NCBI GenBank assembly: GCA_023954855.1
Contig: JAGSGY010000043.1
Location: forward strand, 1 to 44,591
Direction of reading: 5' to 3'
DNA from: Pseudomonadota bacterium
GTDB lineage: Bacteria > Myxococcota_A > UBA796 > GCA-2862545
Length of the DNA stretch: 44,591 nucleotides
Shown here: piece by piece, positions 7,645 to 42,231 of the stretch
How positions within the stretch are numbered: the stretch's first letter is position 1
Layout: every line of letters begins with the position of its first letter
Program-made: the position numbers and the translations under genes
The notes under the pieces: model-generated
What the model saw: the letters and a program-made list of their open reading frames with translations, nothing else
The model's database searches: none
Told to the model about the DNA's origin: nothing

Positions 7645-8046
7645 ATGCGTGTTCTCTGGGTCCTGGCCCTGCTGTTCGCCCCCGCACTCGCCGACACCGG
7701 CGTGGTCGAAGAGATCCCTGTCGGCAGCGTGCTCTACATGAACGCAGCGGCCTGTCCCGAGGGTTGGACCGAGCCGTTTGAGCAGCGTGGCCGCATCGTC
7801 GTCGGCGTGACCTCCAACAACAGCATCGGCGACACCTCCGGCGAGCCCCTCGAAGCGGGCGAGGACCGCGAACATGGCCATGCGGTGACCGGCGAAATCA
7901 GCGTGCCGTCCGAGAGCGTAGCGCTCGCGAGCGGCGGCAGCAACGGCATCGGCGGCAACGGCACCTTTGCGGTGACCGGCACCGCCGAGCCCGTCAGCGC
8001 CGGGCTTCCGACGGTGGCCTTGCGCGCCTGTCGCTTCGGCGGCTAG
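7645..8046 (+). CDS. Secreted single tail-collar-like HxH module protein
   Basis: 133 residues, starting 4 bases after the preceding stop. A signal peptide ([16 protein letters not shown]) is followed by one module of the same kind as in the upstream lipoprotein: [31 protein letters not shown], a Gly/Ser/Asn-rich middle and [10 protein letters not shown] near the end. It lacks a lipobox, so it would be free in the periplasm or secreted. The three modules across two genes look like tandem duplication followed by splitting. The stop overlaps the hsaF stop by CTAG (8043-8046). Confidence 0.7.
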
Positions 8047-9050
8047 CCGCGCTTCTTCGCCATGTTGATGGCGACGTCTTCGATCAGGTCCTCTTGGCCG
8101 CCGACCGTCTTCATGCGTCCCATCTCGACCAGGATGTCGCGGCTCGACACGCCGTACTTCTTGGCCGCGCGCTGCGCGAAGAGTAGGAACGAGCTGTAGA
8201 CGCCGGCGTAGCCGAGGATCAGCGCGTCGCGGTCGATGCGGCAGGGCTTGTCCATCATCGGAATCACCAGGTCCTCGGCGACGTCCATGACGCCGTAGAG
8301 GTCGATGCCGGTGTCGACGCCCATGCGGTCGAGCACGGCGATGAGCACTTCGGTGGGGGTGTTTCCGGCGCCCGCACCCATCCCGGCGCAAGAGCTGTCG
8401 ATGCGGTCGGCACCGGCTTCGATGGCGGCGAGGGAGTTGGCCACACCCATGGCGAGGTTGTGGTGACCGTGAAAGCCGATCTGGGTCTCGGGGCGGAGCT
8501 CGGAGCGGAGGGCTGCGATGCGAGCGGTGACGTCGGCGGGCAGCATGAAGCCCGCTGAGTCGGTGCAGTAGAGGATCTCAGCGCCGAAGTCCTCCATGAT
8601 CTTCGCTTGCGTCACCAGCTGCTCCGGCGTGACCATGTGGGCCATCATCAGAAAGCCGACGGTCTCGGCGCCGAGCTTTCGCGACAGGCCAATGTGCTGG
8701 CCGGCCACGTCGGCCTCGGTGCAGTGGGTGGCCACGCGAATGCACTGCACGCCGCAGTCGACGGCCATCTGCAAGTCGTCGGCGGTTCCGATTCCAGGCA
8801 GGGTTAGTGCGGAGATGCGCGCGTTCTTCATCTTGGGCACGACGGCCTTGAGGTACTCCTCGTCGGTGTGTGCGGGGAAGCCGTAGTTCACCGAGGCACC
8901 GCCGAGGCCGTCGCCGTGGGTGACCTCGATCAGGGGCATACCGGCCTCATCGAGGGCCGTCGCCACCGCGACCATCTGGTCGAGCGAGAGCTGGTGACGC
9001 GTCGGGTGCATGCCGTCGCGCAGGGACATCTCGTGGATGAGCACACTCAT
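8043..9050 (-). CDS. hsaF: 4-hydroxy-2-oxoacid aldolase (HsaF/BphI type)
   Basis: 335 residues. It splits 4-hydroxy-2-oxohexanoate (or oxopentanoate) into pyruvate and an aldehyde that is channelled to the partner dehydrogenase. Visible marks are [12 protein letters not shown] at the N-terminus (catalytic Arg-Asp), [20 protein letters not shown], the metal-binding [12 protein letters not shown] and a C-terminal DmpG-like communication domain. ATG 9050 overlaps the stop of the dehydrogenase gene (ATGA, 9047-9050), so the two are translationally coupled, as expected for proteins that form one complex. The name hsaF rather than bphI/mhpE is inferred from the KstR-like boxes and the hsaACDE homologues in the window. 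Confidence 0.9.
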
Positions 9051-9922
9051 TGCGCACCTCGCTGGGCCAGCATTTCGGCGGTCTTCAGGGCCGCCGCAGT
9101 CATGATGTCGAGGTTGCCGGCGTAGGTCGGCAGGTAGTCGCCGAGGCCCTCGACCTCGACCCACACCGTGACCCGGTTGCCGTCGAAGACCGGCCCATTC
9201 TTGAGTCGATAGCCGGGCACGTAAGTCTTCACCTCGGCCACCATTTTGTGGACCGACGCGGTGATGGCCGCTTGGTCCGGCTCGCCCTCGGTGAGGCAGT
9301 GAATCGTGTCGCGCATCAAGATCGGCGGATCGGCGGGGTTGATGACGATGATCGCCTTGCCCTTCTTGGCCCCTCCCACCGCTTCGATGCCTGCACGAGT
9401 GGTGCGCGTGAACTCGTCGATGTTGTTGCGCGTGCCCGGTCCGATGCTCCGTGAGGCGACGGTCGCCACGATCTCGCCGTAGGCCACGGGCTGAACCCGC
9501 GAGACGGCTGCAACCATGGGAATGGTGGCCTGACCGCCGCAAGTGACCATGTTCACGTTCGGGGCATCGGCGTGCTCGGTGAGGTTGACCGGAGGGATGC
9601 AGTACGGGCCGACCGCCGCTGGGGTCAGGTCGATCATGCGCACACCGTGGGCCGCGAGCTTCTCGTAGTGGTGGCGGTGGTACTTCGCGCTGGTTGCGTC
9701 GAACGCGAGCTGCACGCCGTCGGCGATCACCTCGTCGATGACGGCGTCGAGACCCTCATGGCTGGTCTTGATGCCGTGTTCCCGCGCGATGCGCAGCCCC
9801 TCAGAAGTCTCGACGACGCCGATGCTCCAGACGATGTCGATGGATTCGCTCCGCATTGCCTTGTAGAGCAAGTCGGTGCCGATGTTTCCCGGGCCGATGA
9901 TGACGGCCTTGAGCTTCCCCAT
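9047..9922 (-). CDS. hsaG: Acylating aldehyde dehydrogenase (HsaG/BphJ type)
   Basis: 291 residues. It oxidises propionaldehyde or acetaldehyde released by the aldolase to the acyl-CoA using NAD+ and CoA. The N-terminal Rossmann motif GPGNIGTDL (about residues 10-18), FDATSAKYH, the catalytic Cys128 in [10 protein letters not shown] and [12 protein letters not shown] are visible, with the usual family length. ATG 9922 begins directly at the conserved N-terminus. It is first in a two-gene operon with the aldolase. Two KstR-like palindromes lie 12 and 36 bases upstream of the start codon, so transcription should be repressed until a steroid-derived ligand is present. Confidence 0.92.
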
Positions 9923-9933
9923 GCGGGCTCCGG

Positions 9934-9947
9934 TAGAACGTGTTTCA
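9934..9947. promoter_or_regulatory. KstR-like operator, hsaGF proximal box
   Basis: TAGAACGTGTTTCA fits T-N2-AAC-N2-GTT-N2-A, the KstR operator core as I recall it from mycobacteria and rhodococci. It has one imperfect arm. It lies 12 bases upstream of the hsaG start codon, 24 bases centre to centre from the next box. Confidence 0.7.
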
Positions 9948-9957
9948 GTCGGCGCAA

Positions 9958-9971
9958 TAGAACATGTTCTA
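9958..9971. promoter_or_regulatory. KstR-like operator, hsaGF distal box
   Basis: TAGAACATGTTCTA is a perfect 14-bp palindrome, identical to the boxes at 21302 and 37225. It lies between hsaG (minus) and the divergent cysteine-rich protein gene (plus), so it could affect both. Confidence 0.82.
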
Positions 9972-19696: not shown

Positions 19697-20467
19697 CTAG
19701 GTGAAGCGCAGCGACAGGGAGCCGATACCCTCGATGCTCACGTGCATGGTGTCGCCCGCTTGCACGGCTTCAAGGGGCACAAGTGACCCGGAGAGCACGA
19801 TGTCGCCGGCCTTCAGGCCAATCCCGAGCTCACCAAAGGTGTTCGCGAGCCAGGCCACGGCCTTCAGGGGAGAGCCGAGGGCGGCGTTGCCCAGTCCTTC
19901 CGACAAGAAGGCGCCGTTCTTCTGAACGACCATCTTGCAGCCCTCGAAGTCCACGCCAAAAGGGCTCACTCCGGGTCCCAACGCGAACATGCCTGAGCTC
20001 GCGTTGTCGGCGACCGTGTCCTCGATGCCGATCTTCCAGTCCGCGATGCGCGAGTCGACGACCTCGAAGCAAGCGTGCACGGTGGCCGTCGCGTCAAAGA
20101 CGTCCTGGGCCGTCACCCCTGGGCCCATCAAGTCTTCGCGCAGGGTGAAGGCGATCTCGCCCTCGGCCTTCGGCTGAATCATCAGCTCGGAGACGGGCAT
20201 CTCGTCGCTGCACAGCATCGCGTCGGTGAGGGTGCCGAAGTCGGGCTGATGCACGCCGAGCATGTTCTGAACGGCGGGGCTGGTGACCCCGATCTTGCGA
20301 CCGATGATGCGCTCTCCGTCGGCCAGGCGCCGCTGCAGCATGGCGTCTGAGATCTGGTACGCCATCTCGATGGTCAGTCCATCCACGCGTCCCTTCAACG
20401 GAGCGACCACCTCGCGGGAGCGAAGGGCCGTGTACAGCTCGAGTCCGAGCGCGTCGACATCAGCCAT
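19697..20467 (-). CDS. hsaE: 2-hydroxyhexa-2,4-dienoate / 2-oxopent-4-enoate hydratase (HsaE type)
   Basis: 256 residues, normal for the MhpD/BphH/HsaE hydratase family of the FAH superfamily. It adds water to the dienoate released by HsaD to give 4-hydroxy-2-oxohexanoate. Visible marks are RIIGRKIGVTSPAVQNMLGV, QPDFGTLTDAML, QPKAEGEIAFTL with the metal-binding Glu residues, and GDIVLSGSLVP near the end. ATG 20467 overlaps the hsaD stop by 8 bases, so it is coupled to hsaD. The assignment to the steroid branch rests on context, since the fold is shared with aromatic meta-cleavage pathways. Confidence 0.9.
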   Translation of the reverse strand: MADVDALGLELYTALRSREVVAPLKGRVDGLTIEMAYQISDAMLQRRLADGERIIGRKIGVTSPAVQNMLGVHQPDFGTLTDAMLCSDEMPVSELMIQPKAEGEIAFTLREDLMGPGVTAQDVFDATATVHACFEVVDSRIADWKIGIEDTVADNASSGMFALGPGVSPFGVDFEGCKMVVQKNGAFLSEGLGNAALGSPLKAVAWLANTFGELGIGLKAGDIVLSGSLVPLEAVQAGDTMHVSIEGIGSLSLRFT

Positions 20468-21281
20468 GGGTCAGGAACTCCGCGACGGCACGGTTGAAGA
20501 CCTCGGCGTGTTCGACCATCACCCAGTGTCCGCACTGGTTCAGCAAGATCACCCGGCAGTTTGGCACCTGGGTGGCGAGCTTGGTGGCGCCGGTGGGCGG
20601 GCAGAACACGTCGTTCATGCCCCACAGGCCAAGCGTGGGACAGGTGAGCTCGGAGAGCTGCTCTTCCTGGTTGTCGACGCGCATGGTCTTGAACACGTGG
20701 ATCGGCTGGGTGAGGGCGATCTCGGTGCGCCGCTCGGTCACGCCTTCCGGGAACTGCGAGGCGTCGAAGACCTGCTTGGTGAACACCCGACGCATGCCGT
20801 CGAGGGTGATGCCCTCCGGGCCGTAGATGCAGCGAATCATGCTGCGAATGCCCTTCATCTCCATGTACGCCTCGCGCTTCTCGAGGCCGCCCGGTGCCAT
20901 GAGGACCAGCTTCGAGACGCGGTCGGAGTGGGTGAGTGCGACGCGAATCGCCTGGGCACCACCCTGGCTATTGCCGATGATGGCGTACTGTTCGTGGCCG
21001 AGGGACGCCATCACGTCGGCGGCGCACTCTGCCATGAAGGGCAGGGTGTAGTCGACGTCGGTGGGCTTGTCCGACAGGCCGTAGCCAATCGAGTCGAGCA
21101 GCACGGACTGGTATCCGTGAGCCGCTAGGGCCTCGGCGTTTTTCAGGAAGTTTGACCACCCGCTCGCGCCGGGGCCGCTCCCGTGGAGCCAGAGCACGGG
21201 TTGGCCCTCGCCGACGGTGTGAAAGTGCATCTTGTAGCCGTGTCGCGTGGTCGCGAAAAGGCCTTCGGGAAGGGCGGTCAT
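20460..21281 (-). CDS. hsaD: Meta-cleavage product hydrolase (HsaD type)
   Basis: 273 residues, alpha/beta hydrolase fold. It cleaves the C-C bond of the ring-opened product 4,9-DSHA. Visible marks are HGSGPGASGWSNF (oxyanion region), nucleophile elbow GNSQGG with Ser105, Asp224 in GMNDVFCP and His252 in CGHWVMVEH. HGSGPGASGW and CGHW are typical of the BphD/HsaD/MhpC group rather than general hydrolases. ATG 21281 is preceded by GGAGAGCCC. A perfect KstR-like palindrome lies 21 bases upstream of the start. It forms a two-gene operon with hsaE. Confidence 0.92.
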   Translation of the reverse strand: MTALPEGLFATTRHGYKMHFHTVGEGQPVLWLHGSGPGASGWSNFLKNAEALAAHGYQSVLLDSIGYGLSDKPTDVDYTLPFMAECAADVMASLGHEQYAIIGNSQGGAQAIRVALTHSDRVSKLVLMAPGGLEKREAYMEMKGIRSMIRCIYGPEGITLDGMRRVFTKQVFDASQFPEGVTERRTEIALTQPIHVFKTMRVDNQEEQLSELTCPTLGLWGMNDVFCPPTGATKLATQVPNCRVILLNQCGHWVMVEHAEVFNRAVAEFLTHG

Positions 21282-21301: not shown

Positions 21302-21315
21302 TAGAACATGTTCTA
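21302..21315. promoter_or_regulatory. KstR-like operator, hsaDE
   Basis: TAGAACATGTTCTA, a perfect 14-bp palindrome identical to the boxes at 9958 and 37225, 21 bases upstream of hsaD. It is also 77 bases upstream of the divergent arsR-type gene. Confidence 0.85.
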
Positions 21316-29738: not shown

Positions 29739-30179
29739 CTAGGGCAAGTGCGGGGACACCCAGGTCTGCAGCTGCGGGAAGGGCCTGAAGCCGGCGGCCT
29801 TGTCGACCACCGTTCCTCCGCTGAACAGGAACAGCGCTGGAATGCCCTGCACACCCAGTTGCCCGGCGTGCCGCTGGAACTTCTCGGTGTCGACCTTTGC
29901 GATGATGACGCGACCGCGCTCGGCCGCACCCAGCTTCTCCAGGTGCGGGGAGAGCATCTTGCAGGGGCCACACCAGTCCGCGTAGAAGTCGACGAGCACG
30001 GGCACTGGTGAGCTTCGAATCAAGCGCGCGAGCCCCTCATCCGAGACGTGAATCGGCTCGCCTTGGGTGGGCAGGGCGGTCTTGCACGCACCACAGCTCG
30101 GGCCGCTGGTGAGGCGGCTCTCGGGCACGCGATTGAGTCGGGCGCACGACGGGCAGGCGATGACGGTCGGGTCAGGCAT
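29739..30179 (-). CDS. trxC: Thioredoxin 2 (TrxC-like, with N-terminal zinc site)
   Basis: 146 residues. Two CxxC pairs at the N-terminus, CPSC (9-12) and CGAC (29-32), form the zinc-binding region that defines thioredoxin 2. The thioredoxin fold follows with the active site DFYADWCGPCKM (Cys70, Cys73), cis-Pro in GIPALFLFSGG and KVDTEKFQ. It reduces disulfides in the cytoplasm and may be oxidative-stress-induced. ATG 30179 is preceded by GGAGGCCTG. The kinase gene lies downstream, separated by 182 bases that contain regulatory elements; trxC is therefore likely to be its own transcript. Confidence 0.93.
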   Translation of the reverse strand: MPDPTVIACPSCARLNRVPESRLTSGPSCGACKTALPTQGEPIHVSDEGLARLIRSSPVPVLVDFYADWCGPCKMLSPHLEKLGAAERGRVIIAKVDTEKFQRHAGQLGVQGIPALFLFSGGTVVDKAAGFRPFPQLQTWVSPHLP

Positions 30180-30258
30180 CAGGCCTCCTTTCGTGAGAGC
30201 GTGCGCACGGGGCAGGCGGCGTCCACCCCTTGCCACCTCCAGAGGTACCATCGCGACG

Positions 30259-33200
30259 ATGTCCACAGGTCCGCTTCGACTAGGTCGCTACGAGCTGATT
30301 CGCCTGATTGGTGAAGGCGGCATGGGCCGTGTCTGGGAGGCGGACCTCTGCGGCCCTGCGGGCTTCCGAAAGCGGGTTGCGCTCAAGGTTCTCAAGGCGG
30401 GCGGCGGGGGGCTTGCACACGAGGCTCGACTGGGCGGCCTGCTTCGGCATCCGCATCTCGTCGAGGTGTACGAGCTCGGTGTGGCCGAGGTCGACGGGGC
30501 CGAGACCTGGTTCTGCGCGATGGAGCTGGTGCCGGGCCGCGTGGTCGATCACATCCCGATGCCCCTGTCTGCGGCAGTGGATGTGGTGCGGCAAGCTGCC
30601 CTCGGTCTCGCCCACGCGGCAGACCAGATTGGGCTCGTCCACCTGGACCTGAAGCCGGCGAACCTGCTGGTGCACAAGGGGGTGGTGAAGGTCGCCGACT
30701 TGGGTATCTCCCGTGCTTTCGGGGCAGGGCGCGGCAAGAAGGTCGAGGGCACACCGGCGTACATGTCTCCGGAGCAGCGCGCAGGTCGAGGGGTCGATGC
30801 GCGCTCGGACGTGTTCAGCCTCGGTGTGCTGTTGATTGCCTTGGTACAGGGCAAGCCCTCTCGGGATCCCAAGGCGATTCCAGAGCTTCAGCCGATCTTG
30901 GAGCTGTGCCTGGCCGAGGACCCTAACGCACGCTTTCGCACCGCCGCCGAGCTGGCGGACGCCTTGATGGCGCTCGCCCTCGCGGGGCCGGTGCTCGACG
31001 ACCGCTTGCCCTCCACATTCACGGCGTCGCATACCGGCGCGACCTCCACGGCCAACAGCGACACCTACAGCTTCGCCACCGAGGTGCTCGAGCGCCGCAG
31101 CAACCTCGGCCCTGAGCCCGACGCGTTCGTGGGCCGTGGTGAGCTCGTGGACGATGTGCTCGAGCGGCTCAAGTCTCCGGGACTGTGGACCTTCAAGGCC
31201 ATGGGGGGCCTGGGCAAGACCCGGCTGGCGAGTCGCGTGGCACGGCGGTGGCACATCTCCGCTGCGCTTCCCGCGTGGTTCTGTGATTTGTCGGAGTGCT
31301 GGTCCGAAGCCGATGTGCTCGCGGTGATGGCGCGGGTGCTCGAGGTGCCGGGCGGACGCGAAGACCTCGACGCGATGAGTCGGCGTGTCGGCGCTGCGAT
31401 GGCGGCGGGTCCGATGCTGGTCGTGCTCGACAACCTGGAACAGGTGCCGTTTGTCGCGCAGTTCGTGACCCAGTGGATGCAGCAGGCTCCAGAGCTCCGT
31501 GTCGTTGCGACTTCTCGGGAGCCGCTTCGCATTCGCGGTGAGGCGGTCATCGAGGTCGAGCCCCTCACCGAAGACGAGGCGGTGGAGCTGCTCGCGGCAC
31601 GGGCCGAAGCGCGGGGAGCGACGGTTCCGATCGACGCCGATCTGCGTGAGCTCGCCATGCGCCTGGACGGCATTCCACTCGCCCTTGAACTGGCATCGGG
31701 TCGACTGTCGATGCTGAGCGCCCGGCAGGTGCTCGACCGACTCGAGCAGCGACTCAAGCTGCTCAGCCGGGGACGAAAGGGCGCGCCGGCTCGGCAGGCG
31801 ACGCTTCGCGGTGCCCTCGACTGGAGCTGGGACCTGCTCGATGCGCATGAGCGACTGGCGTTCGTTCAGCTGGCCGTGTTTGCGGGTGGATTCACGCTCG
31901 AGGCCGCTGAAGAGGTGCTCAACCTCCCCGACGACGCCCCATGGGCGATGGACCTCGTGCAGTCCCTTCACGAGCGAAGCCTGCTGCGCTCTTCGGGCAA
32001 CCCGCCACGCTTCGCGATGTTCGAGTCGCTTCGTGCCTATGCCCAATCTCGCGGCGACAGCGGTGTGCAGCCGGCCCATGCCCACTTCTACGCTTCGCTG
32101 GGGCAGCCTCAGGCCTTGATGGCCCTGAATCGGCACGGTGGGCCCGAGAAGGTCACCGAGCTTCTCCGTGAGGCCGACAACCTCAAGAGCGCGGCTGAGT
32201 GGGCTGTAAGCGCCGACGATCCGCTTGCGGTACCGCTGATTCAGGCGGTGGTGAATCTGCTGCTGCGCCATGGGCCGGTGCCGCAGACCGTGGAGTGGAT
32301 CGAGCGAGGACTCGGTGTGAGCGGTCTGTCGCAGAGCCAACGGCACGAGCTTCTCGTGCTTCTTGGCACGGCGATGCGCCGTTCCGGTCATGCCGAGGCG
32401 GCAGCGGGCTTGGCAAAGGGCGTGGAGGCGGCACGTACCAGCGGAATTGCGAGGCTTCTCGTCGCCGCGCTGCTGTCGTTGGCAAACTTCGAGTGGGAGC
32501 AGGGCCGGCTCGAGAGCTGCGAGAGCCTTGCACACGAGGCCACCGACGCCGCCTTGCACTCCGAGGACGAGCGAGACCAGGCCCTCGCGTCCTCGATTCA
32601 CGGCCTGCTTGCGTTGCAGCGGGGTCAGCTCGACGGGGCGCGGCAGGCCTACGAGAAGTCACTCGCGATTGCCAAGCGCGTCGGCGATGTGCGCCATGAG
32701 GGCCTGGCCTATGTGAACCTCGGCATCGTTGCGGATGACCAGGGTGAGGTGGCGCTCGCGGAGCGGCTGTATCGCAAGGGGCGGCGGGCCTTTCGAGAAG
32801 TCGGCGACCGCGGTGCCGAGGCCAATCTCCTCGGCAATCTTGCGGCGATGTACAGCGACCACGGACGCATGGACGAGGCCGACAAGCTGCAGGGCAAGGC
32901 GCTCGAGCTGGTCGAGCGGGTGGGGGACCAACGCACCACGGGGGTGCTTCTCGGCTCGAGGGGCTCCCTCGCCCGGGACCAGGGTGCGTTCGACCGCGCC
33001 CGGGAGTTCTTTGTGCGCGCGCTCGCGTGCCATCGCAAGGTGCGAAACCGGCGCTACGAGGGCATCGTGCTCTGCTACCTCGGAGAGCTTGATCTCGAGG
33101 AAGAGCGGTTTGAGCAGGCCGCCGAGCAACTCGAGCAGGCCCTTGCGATTCACGTCGAGGTCCAAGATCCGGCGTTTCAGGCCATGGACAGGGTCTGTCG

Positions 33201-33576
33201 AGCTCGGCTTGGCTTGCGGGTAGGCGCGCCGCAACCCGCCCTTCGCGACGCCGAGGCGGCGGTGGAGCTCGCTCGGGACCGTCACGTGCAGACCCTCGCG
33301 AGTGCGCTGTCTTTGCGGGGCGAGGCTCGTGCGTTGCTCGGTCTTCCAGGCGCGGTCGAGGACGTCGATGAGGCCCTCGAGTTGCTCGAGGCATCCGAGT
33401 TCATTCGCGAAGTGGCGAGCGGCCTGCTCACCCGAGCGCGGGTGGCCCATGCCCTGGAGCAGAGCACCGTCGAGTGGATGGGCAAGGCCCACACGGTGAT
33501 CTCGGGACTCGGGCTGCCGAGCGGCGGCCCCCTGGGTCGCGAGTGGACGCGGACCGAGGCCCTGCTCCGGGGCTAG
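30259..33576 (+). CDS. Ser/Thr protein kinase fused to NB-ARC-type ATPase and TPR repeats
   Basis: 1105 residues from ATG 30259. Kinase domain (about 8-255): Gly loop LIGEGGMGRVWEA, Lys43 in VALKVLK, catalytic loop VHLDLKPANLL (Asp130; HRD is HLD), DLG in place of DFG (Asp147), and PAYMSPEQR. Linker, then an STAND/NB-ARC ATPase: FVGRGELVDD, Walker A GGLGKT (316-321, Lys320), Walker B MLVVLDN (Asp391), LDGIPLALELASGRL. The C-terminal 450 residues form about ten TPR-like helical pairs such as GLAYVNLGIVADDQGEVALA. No transmembrane segment is seen. The design suggests a signal-integrating switch: TPRs bind a ligand or partner, the ATPase oligomerises and the kinase phosphorylates targets. Confidence 0.9.
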   Translation: MSTGPLRLGRYELIRLIGEGGMGRVWEADLCGPAGFRKRVALKVLKAGGGGLAHEARLGGLLRHPHLVEVYELGVAEVDGAETWFCAMELVPGRVVDHIPMPLSAAVDVVRQAALGLAHAADQIGLVHLDLKPANLLVHKGVVKVADLGISRAFGAGRGKKVEGTPAYMSPEQRAGRGVDARSDVFSLGVLLIALVQGKPSRDPKAIPELQPILELCLAEDPNARFRTAAELADALMALALAGPVLDDRLPSTFTASHTGATSTANSDTYSFATEVLERRSNLGPEPDAFVGRGELVDDVLERLKSPGLWTFKAMGGLGKTRLASRVARRWHISAALPAWFCDLSECWSEADVLAVMARVLEVPGGREDLDAMSRRVGAAMAAGPMLVVLDNLEQVPFVAQFVTQWMQQAPELRVVATSREPLRIRGEAVIEVEPLTEDEAVELLAARAEARGATVPIDADLRELAMRLDGIPLALELASGRLSMLSARQVLDRLEQRLKLLSRGRKGAPARQATLRGALDWSWDLLDAHERLAFVQLAVFAGGFTLEAAEEVLNLPDDAPWAMDLVQSLHERSLLRSSGNPPRFAMFESLRAYAQSRGDSGVQPAHAHFYASLGQPQALMALNRHGGPEKVTELLREADNLKSAAEWAVSADDPLAVPLIQAVVNLLLRHGPVPQTVEWIERGLGVSGLSQSQRHELLVLLGTAMRRSGHAEAAAGLAKGVEAARTSGIARLLVAALLSLANFEWEQGRLESCESLAHEATDAALHSEDERDQALASSIHGLLALQRGQLDGARQAYEKSLAIAKRVGDVRHEGLAYVNLGIVADDQGEVALAERLYRKGRRAFREVGDRGAEANLLGNLAAMYSDHGRMDEADKLQGKALELVERVGDQRTTGVLLGSRGSLARDQGAFDRAREFFVRALACHRKVRNRRYEGIVLCYLGELDLEEERFEQAAEQLEQALAIHVEVQDPAFQAMDRVCRARLGLRVGAPQPALRDAEAAVELARDRHVQTLASALSLRGEARALLGLPGAVEDVDEALELLEASEFIREVASGLLTRARVAHALEQSTVEWMGKAHTVISGLGLPSGGPLGREWTRTEALLRG

Positions 33577-34243: not shown

Positions 34244-35104
34244 CTATGGCTTCGGCTTGGCAAAGACGATTTGTGGTGGATGGTGACCCCACTCGCTGAT
34301 GCAGTCGTAGGTGGTCGGCTCCCACGTCTCGTCGTCGACCTCGCGGCCGCCCCAGCCAAACTCGAAGTGAAAGCGGCTCGGCGTGAGCGCGTAGAAGCTG
34401 AACATGCGGTCGTTCGGGTGGCGACCGAGGGTCTGCATGATGCGCACGCCGCCGCGAATCGCGCGGTCGTAGGCCATGCCGACGTCGTCGAAGTGCTTCA
34501 CCTCGAGCATGAAGTGGTGCAGGCGCTTGCGCTGAGGCCCGCCAAACGCGAGCGAGTGGTGGCGCGCGTTGCTGTGGAAGAACGAGAGGTCGACCTTGTG
34601 GCCGTAGATCTCGGTACGGATGTGGTCCGAGAGCTTGAAGCCGACGACGTCCTCGTAGAACACCCGGCTCGCTTCCTTGTCGGGCGAGGTGAGCACGATG
34701 TGGCCGAGGCCCAGTTCGTTGGCGACGAAGCCGCGCTTGGCGACCTCGCTCGTGAACGGGGCATCGCTGCGAGCCATCCCGCTCACGAGCTCCGTCGGCA
34801 CTCCGCCGGGATCGGTGAGGGTGAAGCGCTTGGCGCAGTCTCTGGCCGAGGCGTCCGCTTCGGTGACCTCGTGTCCGGCCGCGCGAATGCGTGCGACAGC
34901 GGCGTCGAGCGATGCCTCATCGTCGAACTCCCAGCCGAGACAGGCCAGGTCGTCGGCCGGTCCCTCGGTGATCTGGATGCGCCAAGTGTGGTCGTCGTGT
35001 CGAAAGCGTCCGCCGCCCACGTCGTCGACGGCGAGGATGCCCGTGAGAAAGGCGGTCCAGGCCTCGGTGTCCGAGACCTCGAACTCGAGAAAGCCGAGCT
35101 GCAT
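34244..35104 (-). CDS. hsaC: 3,4-DHSA extradiol dioxygenase (HsaC type)
   Basis: 286 residues, a two-domain type I extradiol dioxygenase. Iron ligands in the C-terminal domain are visible: His135 in LGLGHIVL, a His in HHFMLEV (196/197) and Glu248 in FHFEFGWGG. Catalytic support residues are His182/183 in ARHHSLAFG and Tyr238 in FYALTPS. It opens the catechol ring A of 3,4-dihydroxy-9,10-seco-steroid at the meta position. The close match to the BphC/HsaC pattern and the adjacent hsaA gene support the steroid assignment. ATG 35104 lies 9 bases after the hsaA stop. Third gene of the amidohydrolase-hsaA-hsaC operon. Confidence 0.92.
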   Translation of the reverse strand: MQLGFLEFEVSDTEAWTAFLTGILAVDDVGGGRFRHDDHTWRIQITEGPADDLACLGWEFDDEASLDAAVARIRAAGHEVTEADASARDCAKRFTLTDPGGVPTELVSGMARSDAPFTSEVAKRGFVANELGLGHIVLTSPDKEASRVFYEDVVGFKLSDHIRTEIYGHKVDLSFFHSNARHHSLAFGGPQRKRLHHFMLEVKHFDDVGMAYDRAIRGGVRIMQTLGRHPNDRMFSFYALTPSRFHFEFGWGGREVDDETWEPTTYDCISEWGHHPPQIVFAKPKP

Positions 35105-35113
35105 CGGTGCGTC

Positions 35114-36331
35114 CTAGATGAAGAAGTCGCGGGTGCGTCCGCCGAGCTGCAAGTTGCCGTAGTTCCGGCCGCTGGCGTCGGGGCGATTCGCGTAGTGGGC
35201 ACGCGCTCCGTGCACGTCGCAGAAGAAGCGGTGCATTGGGCTGTTGGTGAACAGGGCGCGAGCTCCGCACAGCGTGAACAGCTCATCGACGACGCTCGCC
35301 ATGTGCGTCACAACCTGGGCACTGTCCCAGCGCCAGGCCACGCGCTGCTCGACGGGAATGCGCTCGCCACGTGCGGCGTAGTCCATCATCACGTCGAAGT
35401 TCCGGTGCAGCACGAGCTCAGCGGCGTCGATGGCCGATGCAGCGCGTGCGCAGGCCATCTGGGCGGTGGGGTCTTGTGCGGCGCGATTGCCGTCGGCGGC
35501 GCCGACCTTGGTCGCGGTGACCGACTTGTAGAAAGCGAGGGCGCCGCGTGCGATGCCGATGGACGTCGTCGACACCGAGCGGGTGAAGATCTGTCCGAAG
35601 GGAATGCCGTAGAGCGGAGCCTCGTTGAGTGCATTCCCGGGACTCACGCAGCGAAAGCCGTCCGACATCTTGTGGGTGCGGTGCTCGGGCACAAAGGCCT
35701 TCTCGATCACCACATCCTTGGAGCCGGTGCCCTTGAGGGCGATGGTGTGCCAGTTGTCGTCGATGACGTAGTCGGAGCGCGGCACCAGGAAGGTGCGCAT
35801 GTCCGGCGGGCCCTCGTCCACGGGAGCGAAGCCGCCCAGGAAGACCCAGTCGCAGTGGTCGCAGCCCGATGAGAAGGACCAGCGGCCGCTGATCTCGAAG
35901 CCGCCCTCGACGCGGGTGACCTTGCCAGTCGGCGCGTAGGACGAAGACACGCGGGCGCCGGGGCTCTCGGCCCAGACCTCTTGCTGGGCCTTGTCGTCGA
36001 AGAGGGCGAGCTGCCAGGCGTGGACCGCGACCACGCCGAGCACCCAAGCCGACGAGGAGCAGGCCTCGGCGATGGTCATCTGCACATCGAAGAAGGTGTT
36101 GGGATGCACCTCGAGTCCGCCGAAGCGCTTCGGCTGCAGCATGCGCCAAAAGCCCGCCCGCTCGAAGTCGGCAATGGTCTCACTTGGGAGAGACCGGACG
36201 GCCTCGGCCTCGTCGATGCGCGAGCGGAGGACCTCCTGCAGCGCGCGAGCATTGGCCAGTAGCTTTTCGCGAACATCGATGGCGCCGGCGAGTGGGTCGG
36301 CCGCGTCGGTCACGGGGAAAGGAAGGCTCAT
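35114..36331 (-). CDS. hsaA: Flavin-dependent monooxygenase oxygenase subunit (HsaA type)
   Basis: 405 residues, acyl-CoA dehydrogenase fold used by FMNH2-dependent monooxygenases. It hydroxylates 3-HSA to 3,4-DHSA. Marks: ERAGFWRMLQPKRFGGLEV, ACSSSAWVLGVVAVHAW, SGRWSFSSGCDHCDWVFLG, LKGTGSKDVVIEKAFVPEHRT and the C-terminal HRFFCDVHGARAHYANRPD. The enzyme needs reduced flavin from the reductase HsaB, whose gene is not in this window. ATG 36331 overlaps the amidohydrolase gene stop by 4 bases. Confidence 0.9.
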   Translation of the reverse strand: MSLPFPVTDAADPLAGAIDVREKLLANARALQEVLRSRIDEAEAVRSLPSETIADFERAGFWRMLQPKRFGGLEVHPNTFFDVQMTIAEACSSSAWVLGVVAVHAWQLALFDDKAQQEVWAESPGARVSSSYAPTGKVTRVEGGFEISGRWSFSSGCDHCDWVFLGGFAPVDEGPPDMRTFLVPRSDYVIDDNWHTIALKGTGSKDVVIEKAFVPEHRTHKMSDGFRCVSPGNALNEAPLYGIPFGQIFTRSVSTTSIGIARGALAFYKSVTATKVGAADGNRAAQDPTAQMACARAASAIDAAELVLHRNFDVMMDYAARGERIPVEQRVAWRWDSAQVVTHMASVVDELFTLCGARALFTNSPMHRFFCDVHGARAHYANRPDASGRNYGNLQLGGRTRDFFI

Positions 36332-37188
36332 AGCTTGAAGACCTTTGTGGCGTTGTCGCGCAGAAAGCGCGGCCAGACGTCATCCTTGAAGGGCACGTTG
36401 GGCAGCTCGGCGAAGATGCGTTCGAGCGACAGGCCCATCGGCCAGTAGCCTGCGTACATGATCTTCTTGGACCCGCGCGTGTTGGCGTAGTCGATGATGG
36501 ATTTGGGGTAGTGCTTGGGTGCGAATGCCGAGGTCATGTAGTAGAGATTTGGATACTTGAGCATCAGCTTAACGGCCAAATCTGTCCATGGCTCCGCACC
36601 GTGACGCATGATGAAGGTCAGCTCGGGGAAGAACCAGCAGACCTCGTCGATGAGCTCGACCTTCTGCGGCCCCATGGGAATGCGGGGTCCGGGCACGCCC
36701 ACGGTGCACGAGAACGGCAGGTCGAGTTCCACGCACTTGGCGTAGATCGGGTACCAGCGCTTGTCGTTGATCGGGACCTGCGGCAGCGTTCCGGATGGAA
36801 AGCCGGTCACCGACTTGATGCCGAGGGTCTCGTGCATCTCGATGATCTTTCGGACCTCGGCCATGCCGTTGTTCGGGTTGGCGTGGTAGCTGCCGAAGAA
36901 GCGGTCGGGGTAGCGCTTGAGGGCCTGCACGCTGGTCTCGTGCTGCACGCCAATCATCGCTTTGTCGATGCCGAACGCGTCCATCTTGTCGACGGTGTAC
37001 GCGACGTAGTCCTCGGTGTCCGAGATGTCGGGCACGTTCCGGAACATGTATTCGACGGGCATCTTCGAGTAGTTCTTGCTCTGCTCGTCCATGAACAGGG
37101 GCTGCATGAAGTCGTACCACTCCCGGCTGGACTGGCCGGGGATCTGCAGCATGCAGTCGATGACGCCGATGTCTTTAGGATAGGCCAC
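36328..37188 (-). CDS. Amidohydrolase-2-family protein with degenerate metal site
   Basis: 286 residues, first gene of the KstR-box operon with hsaA and hsaC. It has the amidohydrolase 2 (ACMSD-like) TIM-barrel pattern: N-terminal VIDCMLQIPGQ, KMDAFGIDKAMIGVQHET, RYPDRFFGSYHANPNNG, DLPFSCTVGVPGP, FIMRHGAEPWTDL and the final FLRDNATKVFKL. The usual H-x-H of strand 1 is replaced: VIDCML (residues 9-14) has no His. His196 in MRHGAEPW is present. The usual GSDyP near the end reads YAGYWP (246-250), losing the Asp. Most metal ligands are thus missing, so it may be a lyase or hydratase without metal, or non-catalytic. Its role in the steroid pathway is unknown. Confidence 0.8.
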   Translation of the reverse strand: MAYPKDIGVIDCMLQIPGQSSREWYDFMQPLFMDEQSKNYSKMPVEYMFRNVPDISDTEDYVAYTVDKMDAFGIDKAMIGVQHETSVQALKRYPDRFFGSYHANPNNGMAEVRKIIEMHETLGIKSVTGFPSGTLPQVPINDKRWYPIYAKCVELDLPFSCTVGVPGPRIPMGPQKVELIDEVCWFFPELTFIMRHGAEPWTDLAVKLMLKYPNLYYMTSAFAPKHYPKSIIDYANTRGSKKIMYAGYWPMGLSLERIFAELPNVPFKDDVWPRFLRDNATKVFKL

Positions 37189-37198
37189 TTTGCCTCGG

Positions 37199-37212
37199 TA
37201 GAACGTGTTCTA
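37199..37212. promoter_or_regulatory. KstR-like operator, amidohydrolase-hsaAC proximal box
   Basis: TAGAACGTGTTCTA, one central base different from the other perfect boxes, palindromic in both arms. It lies 11 bases upstream of the amidohydrolase start codon and 26 bases centre to centre from the next box. Confidence 0.82.
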
Positions 37213-37224
37213 GCGGACGAGGAT

Positions 37225-37238
37225 TAGAACATGTTCTA
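37225..37238. promoter_or_regulatory. KstR-like operator, amidohydrolase-hsaAC distal box
   Basis: TAGAACATGTTCTA, identical to the boxes at 9958 and 21302. Paired with the box at 37199 in the same way as the pair before hsaG, which suggests cooperative binding of two dimers at the two promoters that carry pairs. Confidence 0.85.
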
Positions 37239-37343: not shown

Positions 37344-39458
37344 ATGCAGGTGCTTCGTGCCCACCCACTACCGCCGATGGAGTCGCTGCTGCTCACGCTC
37401 GTGGAGCGCGCGGAGCTGAGTGCGGATGCTGAGTCTGTGGCCAGGGCCATCGCGGATGCCCGGGACGAGCACTGGACCGAAGCCGTGGACGATGCGAGCG
37501 AGGCCCTCGGTCTTCGGCCCCGCTGGATCGTGGCCACGACCGCTGAGGCTGCCGGACTTTCGTCGCATGGCTTTCCCCTGGTGACGTGTGCGCCAGACCG
37601 GTTGGGCCGCCCGCGGTGGTGGATGGTCGACGGCGCTCGGCTGGGTCGAGTGCGCCTGACGCGCCTGGGCGACGGCAAGGGCGCGCAGTGGCTGGACCGG
37701 ATCACCCTTCGCAAGCGGATTGGCACCGACGAGTTTGCTTGGGCCATGGTCGAGCCGCTTCTCCCGGCCGCGCGCATGGCGGCTCGAACTGAGAACTCAC
37801 CTCACCCTCTTCGCCGGCTGGTGGGTCTGTTCCGTGCCGAGCGCCGCGAGATGATGGCGATTGGTGCCTACGCCCTCGCGCTGGGACTGCTCTCGCTCGC
37901 GACGCCACTGGCGATGCAGGTCCTTATCAACTGGCTCGCATTTGGAGCCCTGCTCCAGCCGGTCCTGGTGCTGGGCGCGGCACTGTTCATCTTCTTGGCT
38001 CTCGCGGCTGCGATGCGCACGCTCCAGCGCCTAGCGGTCGAGACGGTGCAGCGCCGGTTGTTTGTTCGGCTCTCGAGCGACCTCGCGGCCCGCCTCTCCA
38101 GGGTGGAGCTCAAGAGCCTTGATCGCACCTATGGACCCGAGCTGGTCAATCGTTTCTTCGACGTGCTGACCGTGCAGAAGGCGACGCGCACGCTCTTCCT
38201 CGATGGGCTGGCGGCACTCCTTCAGGCGCTGGTGGGCCTGGTTGTACTGGCGGTCTACCACCCGGCGCTGCTGGGCTTCGACCTGGCGTTGGTGGTCGCG
38301 ATTGCCCTGGTGTGGGGACCCGCAGGCAGGGGAGGCACGTCCACCGCCATTCTCGAGTCGAAGCGGAAGTACGAGGTCGCCGGCTGGATCGAGGAGGTGG
38401 CGCGTCATCCGCTGCTGTTCAAGCTCGGTGGCGCTGCGCTCGGTGAGGTCCGCGCAGATCGGCTGACCCGCGGCTACCTCGAGGCACGCGCCTCGCACTT
38501 CGCGGTGTTCTTGCGCCAGTACGTCGGCATGCAGGGCGTGCAAGTCATCGCCAGCACCTCGCTGCTGGTGCTCTGCGGCTGGCTCGTGCTCGAGGGAGAG
38601 CTCTCTCTAGGTCAGCTTGTGGCTGCCGAGTTCATCATGACCTCGGCTCTCGCCGGGCTCGCCAAGTTCACCGACAAGCTGGATACAACCTACGATCTAC
38701 TCGCTGCAGTCGACAAGATCGGTGCGCTGGTGGACCTGCCAGGCGAGCGCTCGACGGGCCTTCGTGGCCAAGAACTGAACGGGCCGGCGACCGTGGTGCT
38801 CGAGGACGTGGCCTTTCAGTGGCCGAGTCTCCCCGGAGGCTTCGCGGGTCTGAGTCTGGCGCTGGAGCCTGGATCGCGCACCGCCATTGTCGGGGGACCG
38901 GGGTCGGGGAAGAGCCTGCTCGCGGATCTCGTCCTCGGCGCGCGTACCCCTACAGCAGGACGGCTGGTTCGCGATGGGCTCGACGCCCGCATGATGCATC
39001 CCGAGGCGCTCTACCGCGACGTCGCACTGTTGCGCGGCACCGAGGTCTTCGCTGGGAGCATTCGCGACAACCTCTCCCTGGGCCGCCAGGACATCGACAG
39101 CGAGCGCATGCTCCGGGCCCTCGAGCGGGTCGGCCTCGGCCAGGTCATCGCGCTCTTGGCGGACGGCTTGGACACCGAGCTTGCGCCGACGGGTGCGCCG
39201 CTCTCGGAGGGCCATGTGCGCGCTCTGATGGTGGGCCGGGCCTTGGTGGCTCGTCCGCGCTTGCTCGTCGTCGACGGGTTCTTCGACGGCCTGTCTCATG
39301 AGGCCCGCAACGGCCTCCTGCGTCCGATCCTCTCGGACGACAGCCCCTTCACCCTTCTCGTTCTCACTCAGGATCGAGGGCTCGCCAGATTGGTCGGCCC
39401 CGTTCTCGAGCTTCACTCTGGAGGCCTCCGTGCACGCCCCCGTCTCTCGCCCGTCTAG
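37344..39458 (+). CDS. Type I secretion-like ABC transporter with degenerate ATPase
   Basis: 704 residues. N-terminal domain (1-150) may be a C39-like remnant (GFPLVTCAPDRLGRPRWWMVDG in part) without catalytic residues I can name. Transmembrane domain about 165-420 with several hydrophobic helices. ATPase (about 485-704): Walker A GGPGSGKS (517-524) is intact. The Q-loop glutamine is Arg564 (ALLRGTEVF). The signature LSGGQ is LSEGH (620-624). Walker B ends LLVVDG: Asp644 is present but the catalytic Glu is Gly645. The switch His is Gln676 (VLTQD). It could bind ATP but hydrolyse it poorly. It overlaps hlyD-like gene by 29 bases and is followed by a TolC-like gene, so a trans-envelope export channel is likely. 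Confidence 0.85.
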   Translation: MQVLRAHPLPPMESLLLTLVERAELSADAESVARAIADARDEHWTEAVDDASEALGLRPRWIVATTAEAAGLSSHGFPLVTCAPDRLGRPRWWMVDGARLGRVRLTRLGDGKGAQWLDRITLRKRIGTDEFAWAMVEPLLPAARMAARTENSPHPLRRLVGLFRAERREMMAIGAYALALGLLSLATPLAMQVLINWLAFGALLQPVLVLGAALFIFLALAAAMRTLQRLAVETVQRRLFVRLSSDLAARLSRVELKSLDRTYGPELVNRFFDVLTVQKATRTLFLDGLAALLQALVGLVVLAVYHPALLGFDLALVVAIALVWGPAGRGGTSTAILESKRKYEVAGWIEEVARHPLLFKLGGAALGEVRADRLTRGYLEARASHFAVFLRQYVGMQGVQVIASTSLLVLCGWLVLEGELSLGQLVAAEFIMTSALAGLAKFTDKLDTTYDLLAAVDKIGALVDLPGERSTGLRGQELNGPATVVLEDVAFQWPSLPGGFAGLSLALEPGSRTAIVGGPGSGKSLLADLVLGARTPTAGRLVRDGLDARMMHPEALYRDVALLRGTEVFAGSIRDNLSLGRQDIDSERMLRALERVGLGQVIALLADGLDTELAPTGAPLSEGHVRALMVGRALVARPRLLVVDGFFDGLSHEARNGLLRPILSDDSPFTLLVLTQDRGLARLVGPVLELHSGGLRARPRLSPV

Positions 39459-40764
39459 GACCTCGACGACTCGTCTGACGCTGGCCGGCCCGAGCGACCT
39501 TCCGGCGCAGCGACTGGTGACGCCGCCTCGGATGGTTCTCGAGGTCGCGCGCGCCATCGTCGTGGTGCTCCCGTTGGTGTCTCTGCTGCTGCTCATCGTG
39601 CCTTGGCAGCAGTCGGCGACCGGATCCGGCCGCGTCATGGCTTGGTCGCCGGACCATCGGCCGCAGGTCGTCGAGGCTCCCGTGGAGGGACGCATTGCCG
39701 AGTGGCTGGTCCGCGAAGGCGACCGCGTGATTGCGGGGCAGCCGCTGGTCCTGCTCGAGGACAACGACGCCGACTGGCTGAGTCGCTTGGAGGGCCAGCG
39801 GGATGCGGGGGTGACGGGTGTGGCCGCCTTCACCGAGCAGGTCCGGCGCTACGAGGACAAGCTCACGGCAGAGCGTGCGAGCTTGGACCTAGCCATGGCG
39901 GAGTACGTGGCCAAGATTGCCGGCCTGGTACAGAAGCAGACCGGCGAGCGCGCCGCCCGCGATACGGCCGATCTCAATGAGCAGAGGCAGCGGGCGCTGT
40001 TCGACTCGGGCATTCGCTCGGCGCGAAGCTGGGAGCTCGCCAAGCTCGAGCTGGACAAGGCGCAGGCGGCGCTGTCAGCACGCGACGAGCAGATAGCGGC
40101 GACGCAGCAGGCCAAGGCGAAGGCCCGAGCACAAGCCCAGAGCAAGATCGCGACGGTGGAGGCGGATGCAGAGGCCGCTCGGGCGAAGCTGGCTACGGCG
40201 TCGCAGAAGCAACTCGAGCTGGACGGGGACTTCGCTCGGCAGGCCCGCCAACGGGTGCTGGCGCCCGTGGATGGAGTTGTCCAGGTCCTGCACGGCGGGC
40301 CCGGGGGCGAGCAAGTGAAGCGCGCAGACCGGCTTGTCACCCTGGTTCCCGAGACGAATGACCGCGCCGTCGAGCTCTCCGTCGACGGCAACGACATGCC
40401 GCTAGTGGAAGAGGGGGCCGAGGTCCGCCTGCTCTTCGAGGGGTGGCCAGCCCTTCAGTTTGTCGGCCTACCCGGCGCGAGTGGTGGAACGTTCGAGGGC
40501 CAGGTCGCGTGGATCGACCCCGCTGCCGATGACGAGGGCAAGTTCCGGGTGGTGGTGGTGCCGCAGGGCGGCCAGCCCTGGCCAGACGCCGCGGTGCTGC
40601 GCCAGGGTGTTCGAGCCAAGGGCTTCGTGCTGCTGGGACAGGTGAAGCTCGGCTATGAGCTGTGGCGTCAGATCAACGGCTTCCCTCCGCTGCCGCGGGT
40701 CGACAAGAAGGCACCGACGCTCCCGAGTGGCAAGAAGCCGCGCGCGCCCGCGAGCCTGAAGTGA
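39430..40764 (+). CDS. HlyD-family periplasmic adaptor
   Basis: 444 residues from GTG 39430, with GGAGG at 39420-39424 inside the preceding gene. One N-terminal transmembrane helix (about 40-57, ARAIVVVLPLVSLLLLIVP), then a lipoyl-type half-motif APVEGRIAEWLVREGDRVIAGQPLVLLED, a long coiled-coil hairpin (about 120-275, rich in Ala, Glu, Lys), the second lipoyl half VLAPVDGVVQVLHGGPGG and a beta-barrel domain up to the C-terminus. It bridges the inner-membrane ABC protein and the TolC-like channel. The stop overlaps the next gene by GTGA. Confidence 0.9.
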   Translation: MHAPVSRPSRTSTTRLTLAGPSDLPAQRLVTPPRMVLEVARAIVVVLPLVSLLLLIVPWQQSATGSGRVMAWSPDHRPQVVEAPVEGRIAEWLVREGDRVIAGQPLVLLEDNDADWLSRLEGQRDAGVTGVAAFTEQVRRYEDKLTAERASLDLAMAEYVAKIAGLVQKQTGERAARDTADLNEQRQRALFDSGIRSARSWELAKLELDKAQAALSARDEQIAATQQAKAKARAQAQSKIATVEADAEAARAKLATASQKQLELDGDFARQARQRVLAPVDGVVQVLHGGPGGEQVKRADRLVTLVPETNDRAVELSVDGNDMPLVEEGAEVRLLFEGWPALQFVGLPGASGGTFEGQVAWIDPAADDEGKFRVVVVPQGGQPWPDAAVLRQGVRAKGFVLLGQVKLGYELWRQINGFPPLPRVDKKAPTLPSGKKPRAPASLK

Positions 40765-42077
40765 CCTCGCTGTGGTTCATTGCGGCCTTGGCCGCCCCAC
40801 TGCAGCTGAGCGATGTCCAGCAGGGGCTGGACGGTCGTGTGCCCGCGCTTGCCGCTGCACAGGCCGAGCTCCAAGCAGCGCGTGCCGAGCTCATCGCCGC
40901 GCGTGGGGCCTTCGACCCCGTGTTGTCCGGGGAGAGCGCGTCGTACACGGGCAAGAACGCACGGGCGAGCGCCGACCTGAGTCTTCAAGCCACCTCGCTG
41001 TTTGGCCCCTCCATCGAGGCTGGCTACCGCGTGGGAGCTGGAGACTTCCCAGGCTACGACGGACGGAAGACGGCCGCTGCGGGCGAGGTTCGCCTGGGAG
41101 TCGAGGTCCCCTTGTTGCGAGGCTTGGGACTCAGCAGCGAGCGCGCAGATCGGATGCAGGCCCAAGTCGGGTTGCAGGGCGAGGGCGCGATGCGTGATGC
41201 GCGAACGCAGGCGGTGCGGCGGGCCACGGAGCAGGCGTGGTGGCAGTGGGTAGCGGCCGGTGCCAGGCTCGAGGTAGCCGAGCAGCAACTCGCCCTCGCC
41301 CTCACACGGAACGAGGCCCTCGCTGCCGAGGTGAGCGGTGGGGCGCGCGCAGCCATGGACCAACTCGACAACGAGCGGGCGCTGTTCGGCCGGCGTGCCG
41401 ACTTGGTGGTGGCAGAGCAGGAGTTGGCGGTGGCCGCGCTGGAGCTCTCCTTGTGGCACCGGGATGAAGCCGGCACGCCCATCGTCCCCGGGCGCGAACA
41501 GCTTCCTGGGCTCGAGGCACCGCGATTGGCTGAGGTCGATGTGGCGATGGCTCTGGCGCGCCCGGATCTGCAGGCACTCAGGGCCTCCGCGGAGCAGGCG
41601 GGCATCCGTCGGGCGGTCGCGAGCAACGCTCAGCTTCCAGAGCTTCAGGCCAAGGTGGCGACGCGTCAGGACCTTACGGACGAGCCGCAGGAGTGGGTGG
41701 TCGGAGCGAAGCTCGAGCTTCCTTTGGCGCTTCGCGAGGGCCGTGGAGAGCGCGCCAAGGCCGTGGCGATGGAGTCTGCGGTTCTCGCCCGCGTGGAGGG
41801 CGCCGAGGATCGCGTCGCGGCTGAACTCGCGGCGGCTCTGGAGCGACGAGAAGCGGCGTCCCAGAGGGGTGAGTGGGCCGCTCGGTCCGCTGTGCGCGCT
41901 CGCGAGCTTCTCGTGCTGGAGCGCCGAAGCTGGGAGCTTGGCGCCTCGAACCTGTTCGTGCTCGTACAGCGGGAAGATGCACTTGCGAGCGCCGCCAAGC
42001 ATCAGATCGATGCCGAGCTTGCGGTCGCCCTCGCGGATCTCTCGGTTCGGGCCGCTGCGGGCGCGCTCACGGAGTGA
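40761..42077 (+). CDS. TolC-family outer-membrane channel
   Basis: 438 residues from GTG 40761, which overlaps the HlyD stop (40761-40764). A short signal peptide (LWFIAALAAP) precedes two homologous halves with long Ala/Glu/Arg-rich helices, such as LAAAQAELQAARAELIAARGAF and the C-terminal RARELLVLERRSWELGAS. Typical TolC marks are VEVPLLRGLG in the first half and KLELPLALREGRGERAKAV in the second. It should form the trimeric exit duct of the export system. No substrate with RTX repeats or a GG leader is seen nearby. Confidence 0.86.
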   Translation: MTSLWFIAALAAPLQLSDVQQGLDGRVPALAAAQAELQAARAELIAARGAFDPVLSGESASYTGKNARASADLSLQATSLFGPSIEAGYRVGAGDFPGYDGRKTAAAGEVRLGVEVPLLRGLGLSSERADRMQAQVGLQGEGAMRDARTQAVRRATEQAWWQWVAAGARLEVAEQQLALALTRNEALAAEVSGGARAAMDQLDNERALFGRRADLVVAEQELAVAALELSLWHRDEAGTPIVPGREQLPGLEAPRLAEVDVAMALARPDLQALRASAEQAGIRRAVASNAQLPELQAKVATRQDLTDEPQEWVVGAKLELPLALREGRGERAKAVAMESAVLARVEGAEDRVAAELAAALERREAASQRGEWAARSAVRARELLVLERRSWELGASNLFVLVQREDALASAAKHQIDAELAVALADLSVRAAAGALTE

Positions 42078-42231
42078 TCGGGGTCTGGTGGAGACCCGAA
42101 GGTGAACGGCCGCGGGGGCGATCGCGGGTTCGTGGTGTCGTTTGCATAGGCTTTTGAGGTCGTGAGATCTCGCCTGTGTTCGGTGTTTAAAGCGGTGAAG
42201 AGGGGTTTGACGGATGACTCATCTAGACGAA

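Follow-up and report, generated by a model that had tools for sequence, protein, structure and literature searches.

An undescribed amidohydrolase-2 clade without the usual metal ligands is tied to KstR-controlled steroid ring degradation

What does an amidohydrolase stripped of its metal ligands do at the head of an operon for steroid ring degradation? Aerobic steroid degradation matters both environmentally and for mycobacterial infection, and the list of enzymes acting on rings A and B is thought to be nearly complete. The question is raised by a gene, here called AmH, in a 44,591-nt stretch of DNA (the window). Its product belongs to Amidohydro_2 according to the Pfam profile (PF04909, E 2.6e-23, 83.7 bits against a cut-off of 26.4) and matched none of the NCBIfam models in the profile search. 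The original prediction made AmH the first gene of an operon with hsaA and hsaC, preceded by two KstR-like boxes, and both points were borne out: the hsaA start codon overlaps the AmH stop codon in an ATGA, the gene order is AmH, hsaA, hsaC on the minus strand, and two perfect predicted KstR-type boxes (TnnAACnnGTTnnA) lie 5′ of AmH (Table 1). On reading of the sequence, AmH and hsaA are translationally coupled in the window. Downstream of the hsaC operon, the other strand encodes a large protein (30067-33576) with, by eye, a serine/threonine-kinase-like start, an ATPase and repeat regions.

Table 1 Steroid genes and predicted KstR-type boxes in the window
Feature	Position	Strand	Evidence and remarks
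AmH	36328..37188	-	286 aa; GTG start with GAGG just 5′; open reading frame and sequence
hsaA (3-HSA monooxygenase oxygenase subunit)	35114..36331	-	NF045629, E 6.9e-125, 416.8 bits, just under the curated cut-off of 450
hsaC-like extradiol dioxygenase, BphC type	34244..35104	-	NF045631, E 7.7e-60, and TIGR03213, E 1.8e-78, both scores under cut-off
KstR-like box TAGAACGTGTTCTA	37199..37212	.	11 nt 5′ of the AmH start
Second KstR-like box TAGAACATGTTCTA	37225..37238	.	37 bases 5′ of the AmH start
hsaD-like meta-cleavage product hydrolase	20460..21281	-	NF045632, E 1.9e-47; own box at 21302-21315
hsaE-like 2-oxopent-4-enoate hydratase	19697..20467	-	TIGR03220, E 4.9e-106
hsaG-like acylating acetaldehyde dehydrogenase	9047..9922	-	TIGR03215, E 9.6e-137; ATG at about 9922
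Box pair of the hsaG-like gene	9934-9947 and 9958-9971		Predicted KstR-type
hsaF-like aldolase, after the hsaG-like gene	about 8046-9050		Profile scan

The window holds five perfect boxes against 0.10 expected in shuffled sequence, a number that none of 100 shuffles reached, and steroid genes stand behind all five, namely HsaG-HsaF (two boxes), HsaD-HsaE (one) and AmH-HsaA-HsaC (two). Elsewhere in the same genome, on contig C77, KshA and KstD carry one box pair each (9107, 9132, 11870 and 11894). Boxes in this genome are found at KstD, KshA, AmH-HsaA-HsaC, HsaD-HsaE and HsaG-HsaF, and AmH is therefore the sole gene without an assigned step among the identified boxed genes for rings A and B. 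The paired boxes are spaced by 24-25 bases on C77 and by 24 and 26 bases in the window, where the three boxed meta-cleavage operons are spread across some 29 kb and separated by unrelated genes. Further perfect or near-perfect TAGAACATGTTCTA boxes occur on contigs C26, C60, C76, C102 and C146; they probably mark the remaining KstR regulon (side chain and uptake) of this uncultured bacterium. A set of ABC transporter, membrane-fusion and outer-membrane factor genes (37344-42105) runs divergently from AmH out of a common promoter region; it resembles type I secretion, and the KstR boxes may influence it as well.

A scan of genomes yielded relatives of AmH at 80 loci, with 59-88% identity, and whole-genome searches added others; the carriers are Myxococcota and other 'delta' lineages, gamma- and alphaproteobacteria, and actinobacteria. 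Cultured marine strains of Zhongshania and BD1-7 have members of the family too. The family divides into clades by its neighbours, and the clade of the window adjoins HsaA, either in the same operon or divergently. At one locus (L165), AmH heads a single run AmH-HsaA-HsaC-HsaD-HsaE-HsaG-HsaF. At three others (L002-L004), AmH-HsaA-HsaC runs divergently from KshA and KstD, with HsaD next in L002 and L004, so that AmH is again the gene left without an assigned step. Roughly a dozen loci of Myxococcota place AmH between HsaA, HsaE, HsaG and HsaF on one side and KstR, KshA, FadD and a thiolase on the other. A second arrangement, in which AmH is followed directly by a KshA_C Rieske gene, is found in alphaproteobacteria, a gammaproteobacterium and actinobacteria, and the pair occurs on Novosphingobium and Sphingobium plasmids, including that of the estrogen degrader ES2-1. 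On these megaplasmids (L083-L085) the order FadD-AmH-KshA_C Rieske-amidase is kept, interrupted in L084 by an SDR gene. Further clades of the family neighbour MBL, SnoaL and molybdenum enzymes, or FAD, OYE, MaoC and SDR genes, and because of these different contexts the substrate range of the family may be wider. One sister clade in Spongiibacteraceae and Halieaceae (L010-L021, L028, L050 and L059-L078) has genes for an MBL-fold hydrolase and a SnoaL-like protein on its flanks, in Spongiibacteraceae one for a molybdenum hydroxylase as well, and its loci have no KstR boxes.

Box occurrence follows these clades. Within 350 bases upstream, where the background is 0.046 per kb, a KstR-type box precedes each of the 24 HsaA-linked members that could be assessed, 4 of the 14 KshA15-linked members and 3 of the 54 members classed as 'other', and none was found upstream in the remaining groups (0/19, 0/13, 0/3 and 0/3). 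AmH is the first gene after the box in the window and at L001-L004, L008 and L165; where AmH and HsaA diverge, the box may serve both. One genus (g69, L159-L161) has in this place a distant amidohydrolase relative that retains the strand-8 Asp and is without HxH; it is divergent from HsaA, which has HsaC behind it, with a KstR-type box in between. The presence of a different subfamily at this place is an argument for the position beside hsaA having a function.

The association extends to whole genomes. In a survey of 282 genomes of the phylum, 47 carried AmH (E <= 1e-60); all 47 also encode a KshA_C Rieske protein, against 16.7 expected from its presence in 100 of the 282 (p 9e-26), and 24 encode HsaA, against 5.3 expected (p 2e-15), p-values that ignore shared ancestry. 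As a matched control, the amidohydrolase paralogue from the same genome as AmH co-occurs with KshA in 30/50 genomes (17.7 expected) and with HsaA in 17/50 (5.7 expected); lifestyle and phylogeny thus inflate the AmH figures in part, but the control falls well short of 47/47. Conversely, three of the 24 phylum genomes with HsaA at >=400 bits are without AmH. Among carriers outside the close set, 47/50 have KshA_C and 31/50 an HsaA-like protein (E <= 1e-90). For 246 actinobacterial genomes, KshA_C is present in six of the eight with a strong AmH match, compared with 12 overall (p 9e-8). Some actinobacterial genomes with very strong KshA (G405, G427, G481 and G566) have a distant AmH relative or none, so AmH is not required everywhere for the steroid pathway. 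In another actinobacterial genome (L120:8047-10700) the family is present as three tandem copies that have diverged from one another.

The gene itself is under strong purifying selection: against four close relatives, dN/dS is 0.15-0.24 (0.090/0.581, 0.165/0.680, 0.192/0.851 and 0.210/1.003). These ratios, the intact frames and the invariant residues dismiss a decayed pseudogene. At least 125 relatives keep the same residues: H196, Y248, R169, Q175 and Y217 in all 125, D11 in 124 and M13 in 119; D181 and N236 are likewise listed as invariant in this alignment, and E199 is nearly so. The family also has a signature of its own, GVPGPR...Q...DE..WFFPE.

These residues bear directly on the metal site. 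Strand 1 of AmH reads V-I-D11-C-M13-L-Q15 where the family has DxHxH, with position 15 variable, and strand 8 reads A-G-Y248-W-P where the family has (S)D-(Y)P; both replacements are those described in the original prediction. At strand 6, H196 sits in RHGAEPW, a His-Gly motif. In an alignment with LigJ, H178 of strand 5 pairs with AmH T162, a position that varies between Cys, Thr and Asn across the family, and LigJ H223 pairs with H196; LigJ H178 binds zinc, and LigJ H223 serves as catalytic acid/base rather than as a ligand of the zinc. It follows that all four usual ligands are gone from AmH and that the His it retains is the catalytic residue. The earlier reading of H196 as all that was left thus stands in that H196 is the only invariant His of the family (125 members, and 81 in a smaller alignment), and fails in that H196 corresponds to the catalytic His and not to a metal ligand. 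In short, the metal-ligand set of the ACMSD/decarboxylase branch (strand-1 HxH, strand-5 His and strand-8 Asp) fails in AmH, and the catalytic His of that branch, in the strand-6 HG motif, is present.

Loss of HxH is not a one-off oddity of AmH, as a wider subfamily is also without it. The paralogue in the same genome (contig C145) has DAW in its place, a Mycobacterium branderi plasmid protein combines DAW with an ordinary Asp on strand 8, and DTF is found, likewise with the strand-8 Asp, in a divergent relative next to HsaA. What marks off the AmH family is that Tyr248 takes the place of the strand-8 Asp. No second conserved cluster of His, Asp, Glu or Cys that could make up a replacement metal site was seen in the 125-member alignment, and AmH is probably metal-independent.

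An AlphaFold model built with 54 homologues (mean pLDDT 87.9, pTM 0.88) is a confident amidohydrolase (beta/alpha)8 barrel. The strand list of the model places D11, H196, T219/S220 and Y248 where strands of the barrel have their C-terminal ends, which is the site of catalysis in amidohydrolases. The top structural match in the PDB is 3IRS (BB4693; Z 27.6 over 258 residues, 22% identity), which is also the top PDB match by sequence (E 3.5e-20). Next come ACMSD-type decarboxylases (Z about 18-20), LigJ and LigY (18.6-19.5) and LigI (about 18.5).

AmH is therefore very likely functional, KstR-regulated and part of ring A/B degradation. The original prediction of a functional protein in steroid catabolism is upheld by purifying selection, the invariant residues at the barrel mouth, the kept boxes and the linkage to hsaA, hsaC, hsaD, kshA and kstD. 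The search for orthologues near steroid genes that it proposed found them beside such genes repeatedly, hsaE, hsaF and hsaG included. It had also known of no described role for such a protein in the seco-steroid branch, and we likewise found none in the papers searched on amidohydrolases with KstR, hsaC, steroid degradation or cholesterol; the amidohydrolases met there were bile-salt amidases or entries in transcriptome lists, and for none of them was membership of the AmH family shown. Rv3510c, a possible mycobacterial relative, appears in a cholesterol gene list as a conserved hypothetical only. AmH is probably an undescribed working part of the steroid pathway.

Which step might it serve? 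In the textbook pathway, one chemical step lies between KshA and HsaA, the conversion of 9-hydroxy-ADD into the phenol 3-HSA, and 9OHADD is held to undergo this ring opening spontaneously (PMC4064121), which counts against the reading that follows. Our best explanation, which we put forward tentatively, is that AmH is a metal-independent enzyme of the KstR-controlled 9,10-seco pathway that works at the hand-over from KshA to HsaA. With KshA as the 9alpha-hydroxylase and HsaA as the phenol hydroxylase, AmH would act on the steroid nucleus between them. As a specific reaction we propose, somewhat doubtfully, that it promotes opening of ring B by retro-aldol cleavage of the C9-C10 bond of the 9-hydroxy-1,4-dien-3-one. 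His196 would accept the proton of the 9-hydroxyl, the C9-C10 bond would then break and ring A turn aromatic, and the invariant Arg169 and Tyr248 would steady the nascent phenolate. A base (His196) and oxyanion-stabilising residues (Arg169 and Tyr248) could suffice for a speed-up, with no metal needed. AmH would thus either accelerate an otherwise spontaneous step or stop an unstable intermediate from going astray. Among the nearest characterised folds are C-C lyases that release phenols, namely the ortho-benzoic acid decarboxylases (Z about 20). That all of this amounts to a dedicated metal-free C9-C10 ring-B-opening enzyme in the aerobic steroid pathway of Myxococcota and other Gram-negative steroid degraders is an unlikely reading when taken in full.

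About as likely, all variants taken together, is that AmH is a metal-free enzyme of steroid-nucleus degradation at a different step, such as C-C cleavage (hydrolytic or retro-Claisen), tautomerisation, lactone opening or decarboxylation of a beta-keto acid, for example of a 4-carboxy-3-ketosteroid derived from methyl-sterols. Its fold relatives comprise C-C hydrolases (LigY), a hydratase (LigJ), decarboxylases and pyrone hydrolases, and the KshA_C Rieske protein paired with AmH in many carriers scores only 88-110 bits, compared with 180-250 for the best proteins, so that this partner may not be a canonical 9alpha-hydroxylase; in addition, the model for 4beta-methylsterol monooxygenase gives weak matches to the Rieske proteins. 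The partners of the window's clade, however, are the ring A/B genes themselves, and the known C-C hydrolase, HsaD, is already encoded in the same genome.

Improbable, in our judgement, is a non-catalytic AmH that would serve as a binding or accessory protein, for example as a carrier of 3-HSA or of an unstable intermediate, or as a partner of HsaA. The disappearance of every canonical metal ligand and the coupling to hsaA in the window would fit such a role, but this coupling is not general, as AmH stands alone or with KshA at many loci, and the invariant polar residues at the strand ends together with the fully conserved catalytic His argue for chemistry. Very improbable is that AmH works as a conventional enzyme through a different metal site hidden from sequence: the nearly invariant D11, E199 and H196 could in principle offer three ligands to a metal, against which stand the missing second conserved His, the Cys/Thr/Asn variation at position 162 and the universal strand-8 Tyr.

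Together, these results define an undescribed, metal-ligand-free amidohydrolase-2 clade with a strong link to KstR-controlled steroid ring degradation. A KstR-controlled gene at the head of the hsa operon throughout a whole bacterial branch would mean either an extra catalysed step or a new variant of the route. The family as such, in which a conserved Tyr/Arg/His arrangement has taken the place of the metal site, offers testable metal-free chemistry on the amidohydrolase barrel.

Among known proteins, the closest match, BB4693 (3IRS), is an uncharacterised amidohydrolase-2 TIM barrel that, like AmH, is without Asp on strand 8 (aligned LLFGTAYPM); unlike the AmH family, it does not have the GVPGPR...Q...DE..WFFPE signature. 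The LigJ hydratase and the LigY meta-cleavage hydrolase share the fold of AmH and, in LigJ, the counterparts of H196 and T162 noted above; both are zinc enzymes. LigI, the 2-pyrone-4,6-dicarboxylate hydrolase (4di8/4di9, about 10% identity to AmH), offers a precedent as a metal-independent member of the amidohydrolase superfamily, although it is a known lactonase of lignin catabolism; for AmH, what the sequence shows is that the ligands are missing. Decarboxylases of the ACMSD, gamma-resorcylate and LigW type have the same barrel and the strand-6 His-Gly motif; they depend on a metal and employ an Asp as the acid, whereas AmH has neither HxH, nor the strand-5 His, nor the strand-8 Asp. Metal-dependent decarboxylases of this superfamily perform C-C lyase chemistry and release phenols (PMC6644310). 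AmH does not stand in for HsaD, which has a separate KstR-boxed gene in the window. HsaD belongs to the same regulon and pathway as AmH and differs from it in fold, an alpha/beta hydrolase beside a TIM barrel.
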